In this document: positions 8,827 to 19,154 of the stretch, in pieces | How positions within the stretch are numbered: position 1 is the stretch's first letter | Layout: the number at the start of each line of letters is the position of its first letter | From: Parafrankia irregularis | GTDB lineage: Bacteria; Actinomycetota; Actinomycetes; Frankiales; Frankiaceae | DNA: 64,000 nt | NCBI RefSeq assembly: GCF_001536285.1 | Contig: NZ_FAOZ01000009.1 | Span: 186,001 to 250,000 of the forward strand | Direction: 5' to 3' | Position numbers and translations under genes: made by a program | The notes under the pieces: generated by a model | The model's database searches: none | What the model was told of the DNA's origin: nothing | Seen by the model: the letters and a program-made list of their open reading frames with translations, nothing else

Positions 8827-8900
8827 CGACAGATGCCTCCCTGTTCTAGGAACGGGGTGGTCTGACTCCGTCTCCACAGGCTGACACCGTGAGCCCCACG
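8762..8900 (-). ncRNA. Candidate omega-RNA region at the tnpB 3' end
   Basis: TnpB nucleases of IS200/IS605 elements use an RNA made from the 3' end of tnpB and the right end of the element. Here that region ends in an imperfect hairpin (8773-8777 with 8787-8791 on the + strand) followed on the complement by GAGGATGTCAA, the typical terminus of this element group. Sequence beyond 8762 would supply the guide. The placement follows family knowledge; transcription is not demonstrated. Confidence 0.35.
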
Positions 8901-9988
8901 GCCAGAATGTTCCGTGCCGCGTTCACGTCCCGGTCGTGCACCACACCGCAGCGGCAGGCCCACTCCCGGACGTTCAACGGCAGGGATTCGACCTGTGCCC
9001 CGCAGGACGAGCAGGTCTTCGAGCTTGGATACCAGCGGTCGACGGCGATGACCTCCCGGCCGTACCAGTCGGCCTTGTACTCCAGCATTCGCCGCAGCTC
9101 CGACCACGACGCGTCGGAGATCGCCCGGGCCAGCGAACGATTCCGGACCATGTTCCGGACCGCCAGGTCCTCGATGACCACCGTTTGGTTCTCGCGGATG
9201 ATCCTCGTGGACAGCTTGTGGAGATGATCGCGGCGCCGGTCGGCGATCCGGCCATGGACCTGGGTGACCCTCCGCCGGGCTTTCGCCCGGTTCGCCGAGC
9301 CCTTCGCCTTGCGGGACAGCGCCCGCTGAGCGCGGGCGAGGCGTTCCCGATCCCGCTTCTCGTGCTTCGGGTTGGCGACCTTCTCCCCGGTCGACAGCGT
9401 GACCAGCGATGTAACCCCGGCGTCGATCCCCACCCGTCCCGCCGACGCCGGCAGGGTGGAGATGGCCTCCTCGACCAGGATCGAGACGTGGTACTGGCCA
9501 CGGCTGTTCCGGGACACCGTGACCTGCGACGGCACCGCACCAGCCGGCAACGGACGAGACCACACGATGTCCAACGGCCGGTCCTGCTTCGCCAGCGTGA
9601 CCCGACCATCCCGGAAGGTGAAACAGTTCCGAAAATAGGTCGCCGAGTCGGTGGTCTTCCCTTTCCTCTTGAAGGTCGGGTAGCCCGCCCGCTTCGCCCA
9701 AAAGTTCACATATGCGGCCTGCAGGTGCCGTAGCGTCGCCTGTAGCGGCCCCTTCGACGGCTCGGCCAGCCACAACGTGTCGGGCTCGCGTTTCCACGCC
9801 GTGAGTAGCCGATCGGTCTCGGCATGGCCGATCCGGCGCTGTTCCTCGGTCCAGGCGCGGTGCCGTTCGGCCAGCGCACGGTTGTACACATAGCGCACGC
9901 AGCCAAAAGTTTTCGCGAGATTCTCTACCTGTTCTGGATTTGGGTAGAAGCGGTACCTGTATGACCGCTTCGCTACCCAATTCCCCAT
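8846..9988 (-). CDS. tnpB: TnpB, RNA-guided nuclease of IS200/IS605-type element
   Basis: This 380-residue OrfB/TnpB protein starts at ATG 9988 (MGNWVAKRSYRYRFYPNPEQ). The N-terminal helix-turn-helix and OrfB_IS605 region are followed by a RuvC-like domain with its three acidic residues in place: Asp189 (GIDAG), Glu273 (IEDLAV) and Asp353 (HDRDVNAARN). A zinc ribbon lies between the last two (CSSCG and CRCG). The nuclease therefore looks catalytically intact. The stop at 8846 comes before the tail often seen in relatives, and a related tail is readable in the overlapping TetR frame. The family acts as an RNA-guided endonuclease that favours retention of the element. Confidence 0.92.
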   Translation of the reverse strand: MGNWVAKRSYRYRFYPNPEQVENLAKTFGCVRYVYNRALAERHRAWTEEQRRIGHAETDRLLTAWKREPDTLWLAEPSKGPLQATLRHLQAAYVNFWAKRAGYPTFKRKGKTTDSATYFRNCFTFRDGRVTLAKQDRPLDIVWSRPLPAGAVPSQVTVSRNSRGQYHVSILVEEAISTLPASAGRVGIDAGVTSLVTLSTGEKVANPKHEKRDRERLARAQRALSRKAKGSANRAKARRRVTQVHGRIADRRRDHLHKLSTRIIRENQTVVIEDLAVRNMVRNRSLARAISDASWSELRRMLEYKADWYGREVIAVDRWYPSSKTCSSCGAQVESLPLNVREWACRCGVVHDRDVNAARNILAVGLTVSACGDGVRPPRS

Positions 9989-10144
9989 AGCCGGAAGAAT
10001 ACACCGCGGAACCTGACGCGACAGTGGAGGGATGCGCTGACCCCGCGCTGAAGGAGGGGGCCTGCGCACTACCTTTATCGGTCACGATTCTCCCAGGCTT
10101 TTCGAGGGGGCGAGGCGCTGTGTGCTCGGTAGGTATGGCGGCCT

Positions 10145-11476: not shown

Positions 11477-12244
11477 TCAGTGGCCGGACATCCCTCCGTC
11501 GACCGCGAGGGTCGTTCCGGTGATGTAGGAGGCGCCCGGCCCGGCCAGGAAGACCACAGCCGCGTCCAGCTCGCGCTGCTCACCGAGACGGCCCAGCGGG
11601 GTCGTGTTCGTGATGAACGTCATCAGCTGGTCCCGGGGGATCTCGTCCGTCATCTCGCTGGCGAAGTAGCCGGGGGCGATGGCGTTGACCCGGATGCCGC
11701 GGCGGCCCGACCACTGCTGGGACAGGTCGCGGGTCAGCCCGATCAGCCCGGCCTTGCTCGCGGAGTAGGCCGCCTGCGGCGCGTACGACTTGACCAGGCC
11801 GAGCACACTCGCGATGTTGACGATGCTCGACCCCGGCTTCATGACCCGGGCGCAGGCCTGTGCCGCCCAGTAGGCGCCGTTGAGGTTTATGTCGAGCACC
11901 CGGCGGAACTCGTCGGGCTGCTCGCGCAGCGCCGGCACCGCGGTGCCGAACCCGGCGTTGTTGATCAGGATGTCGACCCGGCCGAACTCCGCCGTCGCGG
12001 CCTCGGCCATCGCGGTGCACTGCTCCGGGCTGGACACGTCGGTGGCGACGGTGAGCGCCCGCCGGCCGGTCTCCCGCACCGATTTCGCCACCACCTCCAG
12101 CCGGTCGGCGCGGCGGGCGGCGAGCACGATGTCGGCGCCGGCCTCGGCGAGCGCCCGGGCGAACCCGGCCCCCAGACCGGAGCTCGCGCCGGTGACCACG
12201 GCCACCCGGCCGTCCAGCCGGAACAGATCAAGAATTTCGCTCAT
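11477..12244 (-). CDS. Short-chain dehydrogenase/reductase (SDR)
   Basis: This 255-residue classical SDR uses NAD(P)H to interconvert alcohols and ketones. It has TGASSGLG (residues 18-25) for nucleotide binding, NNAG (95-98), the catalytic Ser146, Tyr160 and Lys164 (YSASK), and the usual end TGTTLAVDGGMSG. It is the last gene of a leftward operon, 6 bases after the phosphotransferase gene. The partnership with an acyl-CoA dehydrogenase suggests a 3-hydroxyacyl or sterol-type substrate, which is inference. Confidence 0.9.
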   Translation of the reverse strand: MSEILDLFRLDGRVAVVTGASSGLGAGFARALAEAGADIVLAARRADRLEVVAKSVRETGRRALTVATDVSSPEQCTAMAEAATAEFGRVDILINNAGFGTAVPALREQPDEFRRVLDINLNGAYWAAQACARVMKPGSSIVNIASVLGLVKSYAPQAAYSASKAGLIGLTRDLSQQWSGRRGIRVNAIAPGYFASEMTDEIPRDQLMTFITNTTPLGRLGEQRELDAAVVFLAGPGASYITGTTLAVDGGMSGH

Positions 12245-12250
12245 CGCTCT

Positions 12251-13282
12251 CTATCGCCTCTCCAGATTGCCACTCAGGGCACGCAGCCCGGCGGCGGCCA
12301 GCGGGGCCGTGGCCGCACCGGCGCCCTCGAAGCCGTCACCCCGGGTCACCCCGGCCAGGAACCGCGCGTAGATACCCTCGGCGATCACAGCCACCTTGAA
12401 GTAGCCCAGCGCAAGATAGAACGGGAAGTCGCTCAGATCCCGGCCGGTCGTCTCGGCGTACCGGCGCGCCGTCGCCTCGGTGCCCGGCAGCCGCGGGCTC
12501 GTCGACGCCGCCGACCCGGCCAGCACGTGGGCGAAGGCCGGATCCGAGTAGACGATGTGCACGCCCAGGTCGGCGAGCGGGTCGCCGAGCGTGGACATCT
12601 CCCAGTCGACGACCGCCCGGATGGTCCCGGGGTCCTCCGGTGCCAGGATCACGTTGTCGATGCGGAAGTCGCCGTGCACGATCGACGCGTCGCCTTCGGC
12701 CGGCTGGGCCTCGGCGAGCCCGGCGTGCAGGGCGTCGATGTCGGGCAGGTCCCGCGTGTGCACCCGCTGCCACTGGTCGTACCAGCGCCGGATCTGGCGG
12801 CCCACATAGCCCTGCGGGCGGCCGAAGTCGCCGAGCCCGACCTTCTCCGGTGCGAGGGCGTGCAGTCGGGCCAGGACGTCCACCAGCGCGTGCGCGCAGC
12901 GGTCGATGTCGTCCTGCGCCAGCGCGTGCAACTGCTCCTCGGTGCGGATGACCGGGCCGGCCACGTGCTCGACCAGCGAGAACGGAGCACCGATCACCGC
13001 GCCGGAGTCGTGGGCGATCGCCCGCGCCACCGGCACCTCGCTGTCGGAAAGGGCCTCGACCACCCGGTGCTCGCGCAGCACGTCGTGCGCCGACGGGGTG
13101 AGTCCGCCCAGCGGCGGACGGCGCAGCACCCACCGGCCCTGCCCATCCGTCAGCAGGTAGGTCAGGTTCGACCGGCCGCCCGCGAGCAGGGTGGCGGTGA
13201 GCTCGCCTGTGAATCCGGGTACCCGCTCGGCGAAGAACCGCTCGAGCGCAGGCAGGTCCAGGCCTTCGATCGGGGTGCTCAC
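12251..13282 (-). CDS. APH-family phosphotransferase (FadE-linked type)
   Basis: This 343-residue aminoglycoside-phosphotransferase-fold kinase has the Brenner motif VHGDFRIDN (202-210) and the metal-binding DWE (226-228). It belongs to the group of APH proteins encoded beside acyl-CoA dehydrogenases in actinobacteria, related to the kinase-like half of ACAD10/11, where a hydroxyacyl-CoA is phosphorylated before elimination. Start GTG 13282 overlaps the dehydrogenase stop as GTGA, so translation is probably coupled. Antibiotic resistance is not indicated by the context. Confidence 0.87.
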   Translation of the reverse strand: MSTPIEGLDLPALERFFAERVPGFTGELTATLLAGGRSNLTYLLTDGQGRWVLRRPPLGGLTPSAHDVLREHRVVEALSDSEVPVARAIAHDSGAVIGAPFSLVEHVAGPVIRTEEQLHALAQDDIDRCAHALVDVLARLHALAPEKVGLGDFGRPQGYVGRQIRRWYDQWQRVHTRDLPDIDALHAGLAEAQPAEGDASIVHGDFRIDNVILAPEDPGTIRAVVDWEMSTLGDPLADLGVHIVYSDPAFAHVLAGSAASTSPRLPGTEATARRYAETTGRDLSDFPFYLALGYFKVAVIAEGIYARFLAGVTRGDGFEGAGAATAPLAAAGLRALSGNLERR

Positions 13283-14562
13283 TGGGCCGGTGCCCCAGCC
13301 GGTGCCCCAGCCGGTGCGTCGGCCTGGGTGGCTGCCGTGGCCTGCGCGGATGTCTGGGCCTGCGCTGCTGTCTCGGCCTGCGCGGTCGTGTGCCGCCGCA
13401 GCGTGCGCCGCGCGATCGCCCAGCGGTGCGTCTCCGACGGGCCGTCGTAGATGCGGAAGGGCCGCACCTCCCGCAGGAACCGGCTCAGCGCGATGTCGCC
13501 GGAGACACCGAGCGCCCCGCAGATCTGCAGGGAGCGGTCGACGACCCGCCACACCGCCTCGGCGCAGAAGGTCTTGGCGATCGCGGTGGACTGCCCGCCC
13601 GAGCGGCCCTGGTCGAGCTCCCAGCAGGCCTGCAGGATGAGGCCGCGGGACGCGGCGATGTCGATCTCGCTGTCGGCGATCGCCTGCTGGGTCATGCCGA
13701 GGTCGCCGAGCCGGGAGCCGAACAGCTCGCGCTCGGCGGCGCGGCGCACGGCGAGGTCCTGGGCGTGGCGGGCGATGCCGAGCCAGCGCATGCAGTGCGT
13801 CATCCGGGCCGGGCCGAGCCGGACCTGGGCGTACTGGAAGCCCTGGTCCACCGCGCCGAGAACGGCTTCGTCGGGCACCTCGCAGTTCTCGAAGAGCATC
13901 TCGACGTGCCCGCCGAACAGGCTCTCGTCCAGCGTCTCGATGTGGCGCACGATCTTCATGCCCGGGTTGTCGGCGTCGACGAGGAACATGGTCGCGCCGC
14001 CGGCGTCCCCGGGCGTGCCGGAGGTACGGGCCATGCAGATCGCGAAGCCGGCGCCGTCGGCGCCGGTGATGAACCACTTGTGCCCCTGGATGCGCCAGCC
14101 GCCGTCGATCCGCTCCGCGCGGGTGGCCAGCGCCCGGGGGTCCGACCCGGCGCCGGGGGCGGGCTCGGTCATCGCGAAGCAGGAGCGGATCTCGCCGGTG
14201 GCCAGCGGGCGCAGGTAGCGCTCCTTCTGCTCCTCGGTGGCGACCGCCTCCAGCAGGTGCATGTTGCCCTCGTCGGGGGCGGCGATGTTCAGCGCCAGCG
14301 GGCCGAGCAGCGAGTACCCGGCCTCCTCGAACACGGCGGCCCGGCCGCGCATGTCCAGGCCGTGGCCGCCGTACTCGGCGCTGACGTGCGGGGCGAACAC
14401 GCCCGCGGCGCGTGCGGCGTCCTGCAGCTCGCGGCGCAGGGCCTCCGACGGCACCGCGGAACGGTTCCGCTCCTCGGCCGGGAGCACCACCTCGCGGACG
14501 AACTGGGCGGTGCGCCGGGCCAGGTCGGCGACGTGGGGCGGATGGGCGAGATCGACAGCCAT
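13279..14562 (-). CDS. Acyl-CoA dehydrogenase (FadE type)
   Basis: This 427-residue flavoprotein performs alpha,beta-dehydrogenation of acyl-CoA. The family features are present: CFAMTEPAPGAGSDP in the middle beta domain, WFITGADGAGFAICMARTS, and the C-terminal IYDGPSETHRWAIARR. The last 35 residues (TAQAETAAQAQTSAQATAAT and on) are an Ala/Gln/Pro-rich repeat unlike the family. ATG 14562 follows GGAGGTCC. First gene of a three-gene leftward operon with an APH-type kinase and an SDR, an arrangement that resembles 4-hydroxyacyl-CoA catabolism by ACAD10/11-like systems. Its promoter carries a palindrome shared with the TetR gene at 18051. Confidence 0.92.
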   Translation of the reverse strand: MAVDLAHPPHVADLARRTAQFVREVVLPAEERNRSAVPSEALRRELQDAARAAGVFAPHVSAEYGGHGLDMRGRAAVFEEAGYSLLGPLALNIAAPDEGNMHLLEAVATEEQKERYLRPLATGEIRSCFAMTEPAPGAGSDPRALATRAERIDGGWRIQGHKWFITGADGAGFAICMARTSGTPGDAGGATMFLVDADNPGMKIVRHIETLDESLFGGHVEMLFENCEVPDEAVLGAVDQGFQYAQVRLGPARMTHCMRWLGIARHAQDLAVRRAAERELFGSRLGDLGMTQQAIADSEIDIAASRGLILQACWELDQGRSGGQSTAIAKTFCAEAVWRVVDRSLQICGALGVSGDIALSRFLREVRPFRIYDGPSETHRWAIARRTLRRHTTAQAETAAQAQTSAQATAATQADAPAGAPAGAPAQ

Positions 14563-14678: not shown

Positions 14679-14694
14679 GCTAACAGCTATTAGC
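14679..14694. promoter_or_regulatory. TetR-type operator copy 1
   Basis: GCTAACAGCTATTAGC is a 16-bp near-perfect palindrome. It begins four bases downstream of the -10 of the leftward dehydrogenase promoter, covering the start-point region, the position expected of a repressor site. Related copies lie at 14777, 17934 and 18022. Confidence 0.65.
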
Positions 14695-14697
14695 TGG

Positions 14698-14727
14698 ATC
14701 GTAGCGGCGATCTTGTTCCTGTCGCAA
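14698..14727 (-). promoter_or_regulatory. Promoter of the dehydrogenase operon
   Basis: On the complement, TTGCGA (14727-14722) and TACGAT (14703-14698) are 18 bases apart, a good housekeeping-sigma match for an actinobacterium. The predicted start lies in operator copy 1, giving a leader of about 130 bases. Confidence 0.55.
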
Positions 14728-14776
14728 GACATGCGGACTGCAAGGCGGGATAACCACTGCGGCCCAGGCGGATCAG

Positions 14777-14792
14777 GCTATTGAGTGTTAGC
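14777..14792. promoter_or_regulatory. TetR-type operator copy 2
   Basis: GCTATTGAGTGTTAGC has the same outer GCTA and GTTAGC and the same 16-base length as copies 1, 3 and 4. It lies between the two divergent operons and could serve the LuxE/LuxC-like genes or assist copy 1. Confidence 0.5.
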
Positions 14793-15263
14793 GGGAGGCG
14801 GTGTGGCCCCGCTCGGCCTGGCCAGCCCAGCCCAGCTCAGCCCGGGGTCGTCCGGCTCGCGTGGGCCTGGGTGGCCAGGGCGTGCCCCCTGCCCTTGTCT
14901 CTGCCGCCGGGCGGGCCCGGCGCCGAGTCGCCTGGGATGGCACGGTCGAACGCCCTCGATGCCTGCCGACCCGGCTGTCATGCCAGGAGGCGCGCAGATC
15001 GTCGCGGCTTGTTACGCTGGGGAATCCTCGTATTCTCGCCGGGCGATTCCTTCCGTGAATGCGGCCCGGCGATTCGCCTGGATCGCGGTGATGTCGCGGC
15101 CGGCGACGGGGGGTGCGTCTGCGGCCGTTGTCAAGGATCCCAGTGTGCGAACGGCTTCATGTGATCGGGCTATTGGATTGCCGGTGCCGGGGTGGCGGGG
15201 ATTTCGAACACGGAGAGGATTGGTCGTGCCGAGGTTCACGACCGCATGCAGCGGAGGCCATCA

Positions 15264-16409
15264 ATGTTTCCCGCCATTCTCGACCTCACCTCGACACAAT
15301 TAGCGGCCGCCGAACCCGACGAATACATCCGGGCCCTGATGCGCTGGCATTTCGGGGAGGAGACCGGCAGCCCCTTCTGGCTGCGCCGGGCCCGGTCGCT
15401 GGACTTCGACCCGATCGCCGATGTCCGCACCTACGCGGACCTGTCCCTCTTCCCGAACGTCGTCGACGAGTTCCGCGAGGCCGCGGTGGAGGACCTGATC
15501 CCGCGCGGCCTGCGCGGCGAGGACCGGGCCGTCGCCGGCGTCTTCGAGAGCGGCGGGACGACCGGGGCTCCGAAGAGGTTCGTGATGTTCGAGAGCTGGG
15601 CCGAGTTCGCGCTGGGCTGGGACGAGTTCCACTACTCCGGCCTCGGAACGGCGAACCTGCTGGCGGTCGCGCCGAGCGGGCCGCACATGTTCGGGGACTT
15701 CGCGCAGCGGCGGGCCCGCCGCCAGAACGGCCTGAAGTTCACCGTCGACCTCGACCCCCGCTGGATCAAGCAGCTCATCGGCCGGGGAGCCATGGACGAG
15801 GTCGAGCGCTACACCGAGCACCTCGTCGACCAGGCGGCGCACATCATGACGACCCAGTCCGTCGGCATTCTCGTCACGACCCCGCCGCTGCTCGAACGGA
15901 TCGCCCGCCGCGAGGAACTGGTCGAGCGGATCCGTAAGGACGTCCGGTTCATCTGCTGGAGCGGTGCGCACATGGACGCCGACTCGCGGGACATCTTCCG
16001 CCGGGAGATCTTCCCCGGCATCCCGCTCAAGGGCCTGTACGGGAGCACCACCGTCCTCGGAATGTCGCGTGAGCGCCCCTGGCAGCACCCGGATGGCCCG
16101 GTTGGTCCGGTTGGTCCGGTTGGCCCGGACGGCGCGGCGGAGCTGGACGCCCCGGCCGTGTTCGACCCGCCGAGCCCCTATATCACCTTCCAGGTGGTGG
16201 ATCCCGAGACCCGTACCGAGGTCGCCGTCGGTGAACGCGGCCAGGTCGTGATGAACCACCTCACCAAGTACGCGCTCATCCCCAACAACCTCGAGCGCGA
16301 CCTGGCGCGGCGGGTCGATCCGCTGCCGGGCACGCTCGGCTGCGCCGTGTCCGATGTGGCCCCCGTGTCGACCTTCGGCAGCCAGACCGTCATCGAGGGG
16401 GTCTACTGA
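15264..16409 (+). CDS. LuxE-like acyl-protein synthetase / AMP-forming ligase-type enzyme
   Basis: This 381-residue enzyme of the LuxE/phenylacetate-CoA-ligase type activates a carboxylate as acyl-AMP. The nucleotide loop ESGGTTGAPKR (about 95-105) is clear, and YGSTTVLGMSRERPW fits the adenylate-forming fold. In bioluminescent bacteria LuxE passes a fatty acid to LuxC for reduction, and a LuxC-like gene follows here. ATG 15264 has GGAGG at 15253-15257; ATG 15246 lies upstream in frame. A 9-base tandem repeat near 16098 encodes GPVGPVGPVGP. The stop overlaps the next start (TGATG), so the pair is probably coupled. The substrate is unknown. Confidence 0.75.
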   Translation: MFPAILDLTSTQLAAAEPDEYIRALMRWHFGEETGSPFWLRRARSLDFDPIADVRTYADLSLFPNVVDEFREAAVEDLIPRGLRGEDRAVAGVFESGGTTGAPKRFVMFESWAEFALGWDEFHYSGLGTANLLAVAPSGPHMFGDFAQRRARRQNGLKFTVDLDPRWIKQLIGRGAMDEVERYTEHLVDQAAHIMTTQSVGILVTTPPLLERIARREELVERIRKDVRFICWSGAHMDADSRDIFRREIFPGIPLKGLYGSTTVLGMSRERPWQHPDGPVGPVGPVGPDGAAELDAPAVFDPPSPYITFQVVDPETRTEVAVGERGQVVMNHLTKYALIPNNLERDLARRVDPLPGTLGCAVSDVAPVSTFGSQTVIEGVY

Positions 16410-17824
16410 TGGGAGCCGTACCCGCCGGCGAGCCGGTGTACATCGACGCGCTCGGCCCCACCGGCCCGGAGCCCTTCCGCGCCCGGGAACGCCGGCCCCT
16501 GACCACCCTGGCCGGCGAGCCCGTCGGCGAGATCAGCCAGGTACCGGCGTTGTACGTGCGCCGGGCGATCAGCGCCATGCGCGCCGCCCCGACCACACCG
16601 GCCGCCCAGCGGTTCGCCGCGCTGGACAAGGCCGCCGACCTGTTCGAGGGCGCCGCGGTGGCGGGGCTCCATCCCGACGACTACGCGCACCTCGTGTCGC
16701 GGGCGTCGGGCGTACCGCTCGGTGTGGTCCGCGCGTCCATCGCCTGGGTCGCGGACGTCCTGCGGACCCAGCGCCGCACGGTGGAGCTCGCGATGCCACG
16801 GGGAGTGGTCGCCGACTGGCGTGACCCGGCCACCACGGCGGGCGCGGCGGTCTGGACGCGCCGCGGGGAGGTCTTCGCGGTCCACGCGGCCGGAAACACC
16901 CCGGCGGTGCACGGGCTGTGGCCCGAGGCGCTCGCGCTCGGCTACAAGGTGGCGCTGCGGCCGTCGACCCGCGAGCCGTTCACCGCGTTCCGGCTGGTGA
17001 GCGCGCTGCGCGACGCCGGGATCCCGCCGGCGACGCTGACCCTGCTGCCTACCGACCACGCCGTCGCGGACGTCATCATCGCGGAGGCCGACCAGGCGAT
17101 CGTCTACGGCGGGCAGGACGTCGTCGCGAAGTACGAGGCGAACCCGCGCGTTCTCACCCAGGGCCCGGGGCGCTCGAAGATCCTCGTCACCGCCGACGTC
17201 GACTGGCGTGAGAAGATCGACATCATCGCCGGTTCTGTCAGCCATCTCGGCGGCACCGCGTGCACCTGCGCCACCGCAGTCCTCGTCGAGGGCGACCCGG
17301 AGCCGCTCGCACGGGCGCTCGCCGACCGGCTGAGCCTGATCCCCAGCCTGCCACCGGAGCACCCCGACGCGACCCTGACCGTGCAGCCGACCGACGTGTC
17401 CGCCGGGATCGACCGCTACCTGCACACCGTCGCCGGGGACGCCCGGGCGTTGCTCGGCGGCGACACGATCGTGGACGAGCTTCCGTCCGGCGGCTCGGTC
17501 CTGCGACCGGCGGTGCACCTCGTCGCCTCGAGCACGGCTCCGCAGCTGGGCGTCGAGCTGCCGTTCCCGTGCGTCTGGGTCGGGCCCTGGCACGAGCGGG
17601 ACGGCATCGCCCCGCTGCGCGACTCCCTCGTCCTCACCGCGATGACGACGCGGGAGAAGCTCATCGAAGCGCTGCTGAACGAGCCCTCGATCACGAACCT
17701 CTACCTCGGCGACAATCCCACGACATGGCTGCGCCCGGGAATCCCCCACGACGGCTACCTCGGGGAGTTCCTCATGCGCACCAAGGCGATGATCCGCTCC
17801 GTGCCGGCGGCCGGCAGCCCCTGA
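16409..17824 (+). CDS. LuxC-like acyl reductase (aldehyde dehydrogenase superfamily)
   Basis: This 471-residue protein is of the LuxC/acyl-CoA reductase type, which reduces an acyl group bound to a partner or to CoA to an aldehyde with NAD(P)H. The nucleophile is Cys285 or Cys287 in GGTACTCAT; AVHAAGNTPAVHGLWPEALALG fits the nucleotide-binding region in shortened quotation (core GNTPAVHG). The start overlaps the LuxE-like stop by one base. No luxAB-like luciferase pair is adjacent, so light production is not indicated; an aldehyde-forming module for a specialised lipid or metabolite is likelier. Confidence 0.78.
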   Translation: MGAVPAGEPVYIDALGPTGPEPFRARERRPLTTLAGEPVGEISQVPALYVRRAISAMRAAPTTPAAQRFAALDKAADLFEGAAVAGLHPDDYAHLVSRASGVPLGVVRASIAWVADVLRTQRRTVELAMPRGVVADWRDPATTAGAAVWTRRGEVFAVHAAGNTPAVHGLWPEALALGYKVALRPSTREPFTAFRLVSALRDAGIPPATLTLLPTDHAVADVIIAEADQAIVYGGQDVVAKYEANPRVLTQGPGRSKILVTADVDWREKIDIIAGSVSHLGGTACTCATAVLVEGDPEPLARALADRLSLIPSLPPEHPDATLTVQPTDVSAGIDRYLHTVAGDARALLGGDTIVDELPSGGSVLRPAVHLVASSTAPQLGVELPFPCVWVGPWHERDGIAPLRDSLVLTAMTTREKLIEALLNEPSITNLYLGDNPTTWLRPGIPHDGYLGEFLMRTKAMIRSVPAAGSP

Positions 17825-17849
17825 GCGAGGCGGGCCGGCGGGCTCCGGC

Positions 17850-17869
17850 GGCCGCGGGACTTCGCGGCC
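17850..17869 (+). terminator. Hairpin after the LuxC-like gene
   Basis: GGCCGCG (17850-17856) pairs with CGCGGCC (17863-17869) around a 6-base loop, 26 bases past the stop. It is flanked by longer GCGGGCCGG/CCGGCCCGC arms that could extend it. Confidence 0.5.
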
Positions 17870-17933
17870 TCGCCCCCACCGGCCCGCTCAGCCGTCGGCG
17901 ACGCCCCCGACGCGTCATCGCGGCGTCCGTTGC

Positions 17934-17949
17934 GCTAACGCCTGTTAGG
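17934..17949. promoter_or_regulatory. TetR-type operator copy 3
   Basis: GCTAACGCCTGTTAGG matches the 16-bp palindrome of copies 1, 2 and 4 with one outer mismatch. It lies 101 bases upstream of the TetR start. Confidence 0.55.
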
Positions 17950-18021
17950 CCCTCTCGAGGACCCTTCCATCCTGGCCGCAAGCAACTCGCGTATCATCCG
18001 GCTGAGTAGCAGTCGAGATCG

Positions 18022-18037
18022 GCTATTAATCGTTAGC
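18022..18037. promoter_or_regulatory. TetR-type operator copy 4 (autoregulatory position)
   Basis: GCTATTAATCGTTAGC ends 13 bases before the GTG of the TetR gene, where a bound repressor would block its own expression. The spacing and sequence match the other three copies. Confidence 0.6.
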
Positions 18038-18050
18038 CGCCGGGGGAGAT

Positions 18051-18632
18051 GTGGTCCGGGCCAGTTCGCCGCGTTCCGCGGAGATCCGCGCCGCCGCCCT
18101 CGACCTGTTCACCCGCCTCGGCTACGAGGCGACCACGATGGCCGACCTCGGCGCCGCCGTGGGCATGCGCGGGCCCAGCCTCTACAAGCACGTGGCCTCC
18201 AAGCAGGACGTCCTGGTGGAGATCATGACGGGAACCATGGAGGCGTTGCTGGCGGCGCACCGGTCCGCGGTGGCCAGCACCGACGACCCGGTGGAGCGGC
18301 TGCGGCGGGCGACCGAGGCCCACGTGCGCTACCACGCCAGGCACCGCCAGGAGGCGTTCGTCGGCAACCGCGAGCTGCGCAGCCTCGTCCAGCCGCACCG
18401 CGACCGTGTGCTGGGCCTGCGCGCCGAGTACGAGCGGTGCTTCCGGGAGCTGATCGAGGCGGGGGCGCAGGCGGGGCACTTCACGGTCGGCTCCGCGTCG
18501 CTGGCCTCGTTCGCGATCCTCGACCTGGGGATGGGCCTCGCCGCCTGGTATCGCGAGGACGGTGAGCTGACGGAGGACGCCGTCGTCTGGCAGTACAGCC
18601 AGTTCGCCCTGCGCATCGTCGGCCTGCGGTAG
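18051..18632 (+). CDS. TetR-family regulator, likely local regulator of the lipid/Lux-like block
   Basis: This 193-residue TetR-family repressor has its helix-turn-helix at about residues 27-50 (TTMADLGAAVGMRGPSLYKH) and a C-terminal TetR_C-type ligand domain rich in Glu and Arg (LRSLVQPHRDRVLGLRAEYE). GTG 18051 follows GGGGGAG. Two copies of the 16-bp palindrome lie before its start and two more before the dehydrogenase operon, so it is the obvious candidate to bind them. Acyl-CoA is a common ligand in this family, but the ligand here is unknown. Confidence 0.87.
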   Translation: MVRASSPRSAEIRAAALDLFTRLGYEATTMADLGAAVGMRGPSLYKHVASKQDVLVEIMTGTMEALLAAHRSAVASTDDPVERLRRATEAHVRYHARHRQEAFVGNRELRSLVQPHRDRVLGLRAEYERCFRELIEAGAQAGHFTVGSASLASFAILDLGMGLAAWYREDGELTEDAVVWQYSQFALRIVGLR

Positions 18633-19037: not shown

Positions 19038-19096
19038 CGACCGCCACCGCGTCCGCGGCCGCCACCGCGTCCGCGGCCGCCACCGCGTCCGCGGTT
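19038..19096 (+). repeat. 18-bp tandem repeats
   Basis: About three copies of the 18-base unit CCACCGCGTCCGCGGCCG run head to tail. Units are contiguous with no spacers, so this is not a CRISPR array. Confidence 0.75.
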
Positions 19097-19106
19097 GCTA
19101 TCAGAC

Positions 19107-19154
19107 AAGATCAAGGGATTTTGGTCGTCACAACGACCAAAATCCCTTGATCTT
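19107..19154. repeat. Perfect 22-bp stem, REP/BIME-like
   Basis: Bases 19107-19128 are an exact inverted copy of 19133-19154, with the 4-base loop CACA. The stem is AT-rich in the middle (GGGATTTTGGTCGT on one arm). It is far from the neighbouring stop codons, so a repeated extragenic palindrome is likelier than an ordinary terminator; that depends on whether it recurs in the genome. Confidence 0.75.

Follow-up and report, generated by a model that had tools for sequence, protein, structure and literature searches.

Four copies of a 16-bp palindrome in a 64,000-nucleotide stretch of the Parafrankia irregularis genome (contig NZ_FAOZ01000009.1, positions 186,001 to 250,000; hereafter the window, with coordinates counted from its first letter) are very probably the operators of the adjacent TetR-type regulator. 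Acting in pairs, they would allow this protein to repress its own gene together with a divergent operon for an acyl-CoA dehydrogenase (ACAD), an APH-family kinase and an SDR oxidoreductase, and the control region appears to have been doubled in this Parafrankia lineage. The sites, their pairing, phasing and conservation, the catalytic motifs of the enzymes and a complementary loss of -10 elements can be read in the sequences; repressor binding, inducer, enzyme activity, cooperativity and order of events are predicted from them.

The palindromes lie where the initial annotation, made from the letters alone, had placed them, and they form two pairs with start-to-start distances of 98 and 88 bp. 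The first pair, copy A, consists of O1 (copy 1; 14679..14694; GCTAACAGCTATTAGC; 25.9 bits), where the operon transcript is expected to begin, and O2 (copy 2; 14777..14792; GCTATTGAGTGTTAGC; 23.2 bits). The second, copy B, consists of O1 (copy 3; 17934..17949; GCTAACGCCTGTTAGG; 15.2 bits), the weakest of the four, whose final base is G instead of C, and O2 (copy 4; 18022..18037; GCTATTAATCGTTAGC; 25.2 bits), which ends 13 bp ahead of the GTG start codon of tetR, as annotated. Scores come from a palindromic matrix trained on 76 sites of 46 orthologue loci, with this strain and Parafrankia sp. EUN1f left out; the next-best place in the window reaches 3.7 bits, against 15.2 to 25.9 for the four sites.

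The four palindromes are real and specific. Allowing one mismatch, GCTANNNNNNNTTAGC has nine strand-matches in the window, eight of which are the four sites, whereas 100 shuffles average 1.52 matches and never exceed 6. Across the 64 kb, GCTA-N8-TAG[CG] is matched by the four sites and nowhere else, for a first-order Markov expectation of 0.13 in the window and 0.007 in the 3.36-kb span of the sites. The corresponding Poisson probability of four or more occurrences, about 1e-10, is too favourable because the pattern was derived from the sites themselves. In the whole genome of the strain (9.54 Mb), GCTAWYRNNNRWTAGC without mismatch is found at copies 1, 2 and 4 only. With up to one mismatch it is found at the four sites, at one two-strand place (C17:42360) and at five single-strand places. 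The backward control of the same pattern gives 17 forward and 12 reverse matches, so that the loose single-strand matches are chance; the stretch around the two-strand match contains no clear gene, and this match was set aside.

A search for related loci with tetR recovered 60 loci. Of these, 47 (L011-L057, 53-99% identity) served as orthologues, and 13 short or weak matches were not used. In 46 of the 47, across many genera, the 300 bp upstream of tetR contain a site that departs from GCTAAC-N4-GTTAGC at no more than two positions; the remaining locus, L047, has a three-mismatch site of 22 bits. The top-scoring place of the locus is upstream of tetR in 46 of the 47, the exception being EUN1f, where it is the copy-A O1; in 43, two sites upstream of tetR outscore all other places. 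The exact O1-type pattern is present in 44 of 46 orthologue genomes (backward control: 11 of 46). Moreover, the dehydrogenase gene (ACAD1) is directly divergent from tetR at 43 of the 47 loci. Among the other genes, APH is found in 39 loci, SDR at 65% identity or more in 24 and luxE in one (EUN1f). A conserved palindrome before the regulator combined with a divergent operon is the arrangement of a TetR autorepressor, and the comparison supports the earlier proposal that the protein would control the dehydrogenase operon and itself. Two outcomes that the initial annotation had named as refuting, an abundance of equally good matches in coding DNA and a loss of the sites from relatives with the TetR gene, did not occur. 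The description of this system as a self-contained regulon fits most orthologue genomes. It does not fit five of the 46, which carry an exact O1 match away from the tetR locus, in three cases (G053, G061 and G059) before an ACAD gene of this kind.

The association persists where the genes are rearranged. In Pseudonocardia kunmingensis (L136), where 7 kb separate tetR from the ACAD-APH genes, there is one site before tetR and two, 56 bp apart, before ACAD. In two Streptomyces (L134 and L135), a paralogous TetR (49 and 52% identical) lies by SDR-ACAD-APH genes with the same type of pair, 80 bp apart and 16.6 kb from the main locus. This second locus adjoins genes that, judged by eye, resemble a CoA-transferase pair and an acyl-CoA synthetase. 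At family level, tetR is directly divergent from ACAD1 in four of five other genomes of the genus (L091, L092, L093 and L095), while EUN1f has the split layout. Of the 18 Frankiaceae loci from the family scan, 11 lie by an ACAD1 gene and six (L090, L096, L097, L099, L100 and L103) by none of the three genes. The last one, L086 (G002:C346), has only a partial TetR-like match, to a different reading frame (48%), close to which GCTATCATACGATAGC is found.

Site pairs were also sought by pattern. Phylum-wide scans matched 0 of 396 and 1 of 396 genomes, the latter being the genome of the strain itself, because the even draw of genomes included few relatives. Family-centred scans matched 21 of 297, 2 of 345 and 7 of 297 genomes, with backward controls all at 0; these scans miss weaker O2 sites, as the centre genome G042 has a pair and is nevertheless unmatched in one of them. 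One matched locus, L189 (G1374:C27), has two phased sites of the form GCTAAT...ATTAGC at a distance of 76 bp, and neither TetR nor ACAD1 is matched within 1.5 kb of them. No description of this regulon or of its motif was found in openly licensed papers.

The spacing within pairs is not continuous. Start-to-start distances between O1 and O2 in the orthologue loci fall into classes of 54-56, 64-68, 76-80, 84-91, 99 and 109-110 bp, separated by steps of about 11 bp over the range of 54-110 bp. A Rayleigh test at 11 bp gives R 0.70 and p = 1e-10 for 47 loci (a set that leaves out L011, L035 and L057 and adds L134-L136), and p = 0.004 for 14 further loci from the family-centred scans, for which the period was fixed beforehand. 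The 24 distinct spacing values alone give p = 1e-4, and a jitter null gives 0/2000. In stricter sets, from which L016, L052, L053 and L054 (weak second site) and L189 (no TetR or ACAD match) were dropped, p is 3e-9 for 43 loci, 0.008 for 13 and 4e-11 for 56. At 55 of these 56 loci the spacing differs from a multiple of 11 by 3 bp or less (7 of 11 residues qualify, so that 64% would be expected), and at 48 by 2.75 bp or less. Keeping one locus per cluster of TetR identity gives p values of 3e-8, 1e-4 and 0.003 for 32, 19 and 10 clusters, respectively. Since O1 and O2 belong to different promoters and are nevertheless phased, a contact between two dimers is suggested. The phased pairs would then represent interacting dimers on one face of the DNA, possibly with looping and cooperative binding.

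The regulator itself (tetR, 18051..18632, plus strand, GTG start, 193 aa) belongs to the TetR family: TetR_N (PF00440) and TetR_C_24 (PF17932) score above cut-off, and an AlphaFold model (pLDDT 94.3) and its fold matches display the helix-turn-helix and the alpha-helical ligand domain. The fold neighbours of the model include 3him, PfmR, KstR2, AibR with isovaleryl-CoA, and BkaR. The acyl-CoA type of several of these (KstR2, AibR, PfmR) makes an acyl-CoA effector likely, as judged from the model. The closest described operator layout is that of BkaR (Rv2506/MSMEG_4718) of mycobacteria. There, a TetR dimer recognises a 16-bp palindromic core, present in two copies between divergent acyl-CoA operon genes, with auto-repression (PMC3920632); here, binding is predicted. 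The folds are also similar (6yj2, TM 0.83), at about 20% identity in the fold alignment. However, the BkaR core is GTTA(N)T(N4)A(N)TAAC, in contrast to GCTAAY(N4)RTTAGC here, and its neighbours are branched-chain keto-acid genes and not genes of the ACAD10/11 type. Membership of the BkaR regulon was accordingly rejected, the window sites being of the form GCTA...TAG(C/G) and their neighbours ACAD10/11-type, APH and SDR genes. KstR2, which also acts from intergenic palindromes (PMC3068626), AibR and PfmR share the fold but serve other pathways, at 24-33% identity, and the KstR2 motif is AnCAAGnnCTTGnT. A further parallel, drawn by description alone, is QsdR of Rhodococcus, an actinobacterial TetR repressor which responds to gamma-caprolactone, the lactone of 4-hydroxyhexanoate (PMC6476934). 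An actinobacterial TetR protein can therefore sense the lactone of a 4-hydroxy acid, although QsdR controls a lactonase operon.

The three genes of the operon lie on the minus strand and encode ACAD1 (13279..14562), the APH-family kinase (12251..13282; PF01636) and the SDR oxidoreductase (11477..12244; PF13561/PF00106). ACAD1 is of the ACAD10/ACAD11 (LvaC-like) type, with ACAD11 among its best PDB matches. It carries the HCMR motif with the upstream arginine (R....R..HCMR; RLGPARMTHCMR at residue 248) and the catalytic aspartate that replaces glutamate (IYDG at 371). According to PMC12440821, residues R626, H634 and R637 of ACAD11, together with the catalytic aspartate, handle 4-phosphoacyl-CoA; ACAD10/11 and LvaC have these residues, which conventional ACADs lack. 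The HCMR motif is absent from the two other dehydrogenases of the window, ACAD2 and ACAD3. It is present in 42 of 44 orthologue ACAD matches, and the aspartate in 41 of 44, the misses being partial alignments. The kinase resembles LvaA and the kinase domain of ACAD10/11 and has the catalytic HGD....N motif (HGDFRIDN at 203); among structures it matches ACAD11 at 1e-46, two bacterial structures scoring better. An ACAD with HCMR, upstream arginine and catalytic aspartate and an APH-family partner are shared with ACAD10/ACAD11 and LvaA-LvaC (PMC12440821, PMC11342911). Here, in contrast, the functions reside in two separate genes with an added SDR gene, and an adjacent TetR would act as regulator. 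LvaR of Pseudomonas, which is of the sigma-54 type, is reported to drive the lva operon. Burkholderia orthologues are reported to replace ACAD10 domains (PMC11342911). The operon most likely encodes a split ACAD10/ACAD11 pathway of the LvaC-LvaA type, an activity predicted from the motifs. From the ACAD1 motif and aspartate and the APH partner, the TetR protein is therefore predicted to repress 4-hydroxyacyl-CoA catabolism as well as its own gene.

The promoter elements indicate how the two pairs may have divided their tasks. The -10 that the initial annotation had seen next to copy 1 is indeed present, as a minus-strand TACGAT (14698..14703) directly upstream of it. A -35-like TTGCGA (14722..14727, minus strand), assigned from its position and its 18-bp spacer, lies further upstream, and 24 of 44 loci have GCAA here. 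For tetR, a plus-strand -10-like TATCAT lies at 17992..17997, and related Frankiaceae have TATGAT or TACCAT at the same place. Among the orthologue loci, 33 of 44 have a minus-strand -10-like ANNNTA no more than 16 bp from O1, against 0.6% of random places, and 35 of 44 have a plus-strand -10-like element near O2, against 2.6%. In this strain and EUN1f, copy A keeps the operon -10 and lacks that of tetR, and copy B shows the reverse. The copy A block with O1, -10 and -35 belongs to a long block unchanged between the two strains. O2 of copy A has 13 of 16 bases in common with its EUN1f counterpart, with the GCTA and GTTAGC ends kept, and O1 of copy B has 14 of 16. The four copies seem to be two complete pairs, an ancestral bidirectional control region present twice, and the layout is most simply explained by duplication of one such region.

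Two genes lie between the pairs on the plus strand: luxE (15264..16409; PF00501), for a LuxE-like AMP-binding protein that is probably not a target, and luxC (16409..17824; PF00171, PF05893), for its partner, a LuxC-like acyl-CoA reductase or aldehyde dehydrogenase. They occupy this position only in this strain and EUN1f (one of the 47 orthologue loci). They occur elsewhere in the Frankiaceae, where a LuxE match at 1e-30 is found in 26 of 35 genomes. No direct repeats flank the insert beyond chance-like ones. Further out, the intergenic region after tetR contains a perfect 22-bp inverted repeat with a 4-nt loop (19107-19154), adjoined by three 18-bp tandem units (19038-19094). A 407-aa reading frame at 8846-10069 on the minus strand resembles an IS200/IS605-type TnpB, as recognised by eye from the translation.

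It is proposed that a TetR dimer on each palindrome would repress the ACAD-APH-SDR operon and tetR, with O1 at the start of the operon and O2 at that of tetR. As the two sites are a near-whole number of helical turns apart, the two dimers probably aid each other's binding across the promoter DNA. The APH-like kinase would phosphorylate 4-hydroxyacyl-CoAs at their 4-hydroxyl, after which the atypical dehydrogenase would remove the phosphate to yield a 2-enoyl-CoA for beta-oxidation; the probable inducer is an acyl-CoA intermediate, most likely a 4-hydroxyacyl-CoA. In most relatives a single O1-O2 pair would serve both genes. In this Parafrankia lineage copy A would serve the operon and copy B tetR, each having lost the other -10. 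The most complete form of this proposal remains tentative, its chances falling just short of even. It holds that the repressor of 4-hydroxyacyl-CoA catabolism acts through helically phased dimer pairs bridging 5-10 turns, with whole turns gained or lost, and that the bidirectional region was doubled, with complementary promoter loss, when a two-gene cassette split the regulator from its operon. The role in 4-hydroxyacyl-CoA metabolism and the pairing of the sites are additions to the initial annotation, whose interpretation is otherwise partly supported.

Each site could instead bind one dimer independently, one operator per divergent promoter, with the 11-bp steps reflecting shared ancestry and indels tolerated by promoter geometry. 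This is quite plausible, at somewhat below an even chance: BkaR places a dimer on each of two palindromes in a divergent intergenic region (PMC3920632), loops made by the TetR family are not common knowledge, and the phasing loses significance when only four independent clusters are kept (p = 0.07). On the other hand, sites in different promoters should be phased only by contact or a shared bend, and the periodicity recurs in the 13 loci found without regard to spacing phase (p = 0.008) and with one locus per 80% cluster (p = 1e-4). As to the doubling, copies A and B are no more alike outside the sites than shuffles (a local alignment scores 26, where shuffles average 22.5 and reach 33; inner alignment z = 1.1), so that their common origin by duplication rests on the layout. 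The second pair could alternatively have come from a second TetR-ACAD-type locus, such as the paralogous Streptomyces loci with the same pair, having been brought in with luxE-luxC or recombined here. This origin is plausible but less likely than not, as the single region of Parafrankia relatives shows a weak resemblance to each copy (z of 3.5 and 2.8 with L012) and the genome contains no second locus.

The initial annotation had also placed the LuxE/LuxC-like pair under probable TetR control. O2 of copy A does lie upstream of luxE on its strand, with its ends kept in EUN1f, but control through this site is unlikely. The start of luxE is 471 bp beyond it, and neither this strain nor EUN1f has a plus-strand -10 near it. 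Moreover, none of 18 other luxE loci has a GCTA...TAGC site (the best 20 of 41 rows were scanned, two of them being this locus and EUN1f, with 1.5-kb flanks, shorter in L149); in one of the 18, L158, a weak match with two mismatches lies about 600 bp upstream. The LuxC paralogue of the same genome also has no site nearby. The absence of sites at other Frankiaceae luxE loci led to the rejection of this control as the principal interpretation, and with that at the paralogue it makes luxE-luxC probably a passenger between the operator pairs. Several observations weigh against the operator assignment more generally. O1 of copy B is weak; the extra exact matches in G073 and G055 adjoin no gene of this kind; the ACAD gene does not adjoin tetR in L035, L049 and L057; and 26 of the 35 loci with a tetR -10 have it inside O2, so that it is not independent of the operator. 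Furthermore, the gene pair persists without the motif in a third TetR clade, which is more distant: in Mycobacteriaceae-type relatives, with TetR at 31-36% near ACAD at 59-64% in four of 13 loci (L195, L196, L197 and L202), a GCTA...TAGC site is found in none of the 13. This might be expected if the sites belonged to another regulator and lay near tetR by chance of common ancestry. That explanation is highly improbable, since the motif stays with tetR over 53-99% identity, accompanies tetR and ACAD alike where 7 kb separate them, and reappears at a paralogous TetR-ACAD locus. The lack of the motif in the Mycobacteriaceae-type loci marks the limit of the regulon, and the proteins there probably use another operator.

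The ACAD10/ACAD11 pathway was described in mammals in 2024-2025. The assignment of the palindromes to TetR would provide its bacterial counterpart with a predicted regulator, operator and local regulon in genera such as Frankia, Amycolatopsis, Prauserella, Pseudonocardia and Streptomyces. The phasing of the sites suggests a cooperative or looped mode of binding in the TetR family that is open to direct test, and the two-copy layout of Parafrankia may represent a natural example of a shared control region splitting its tasks.

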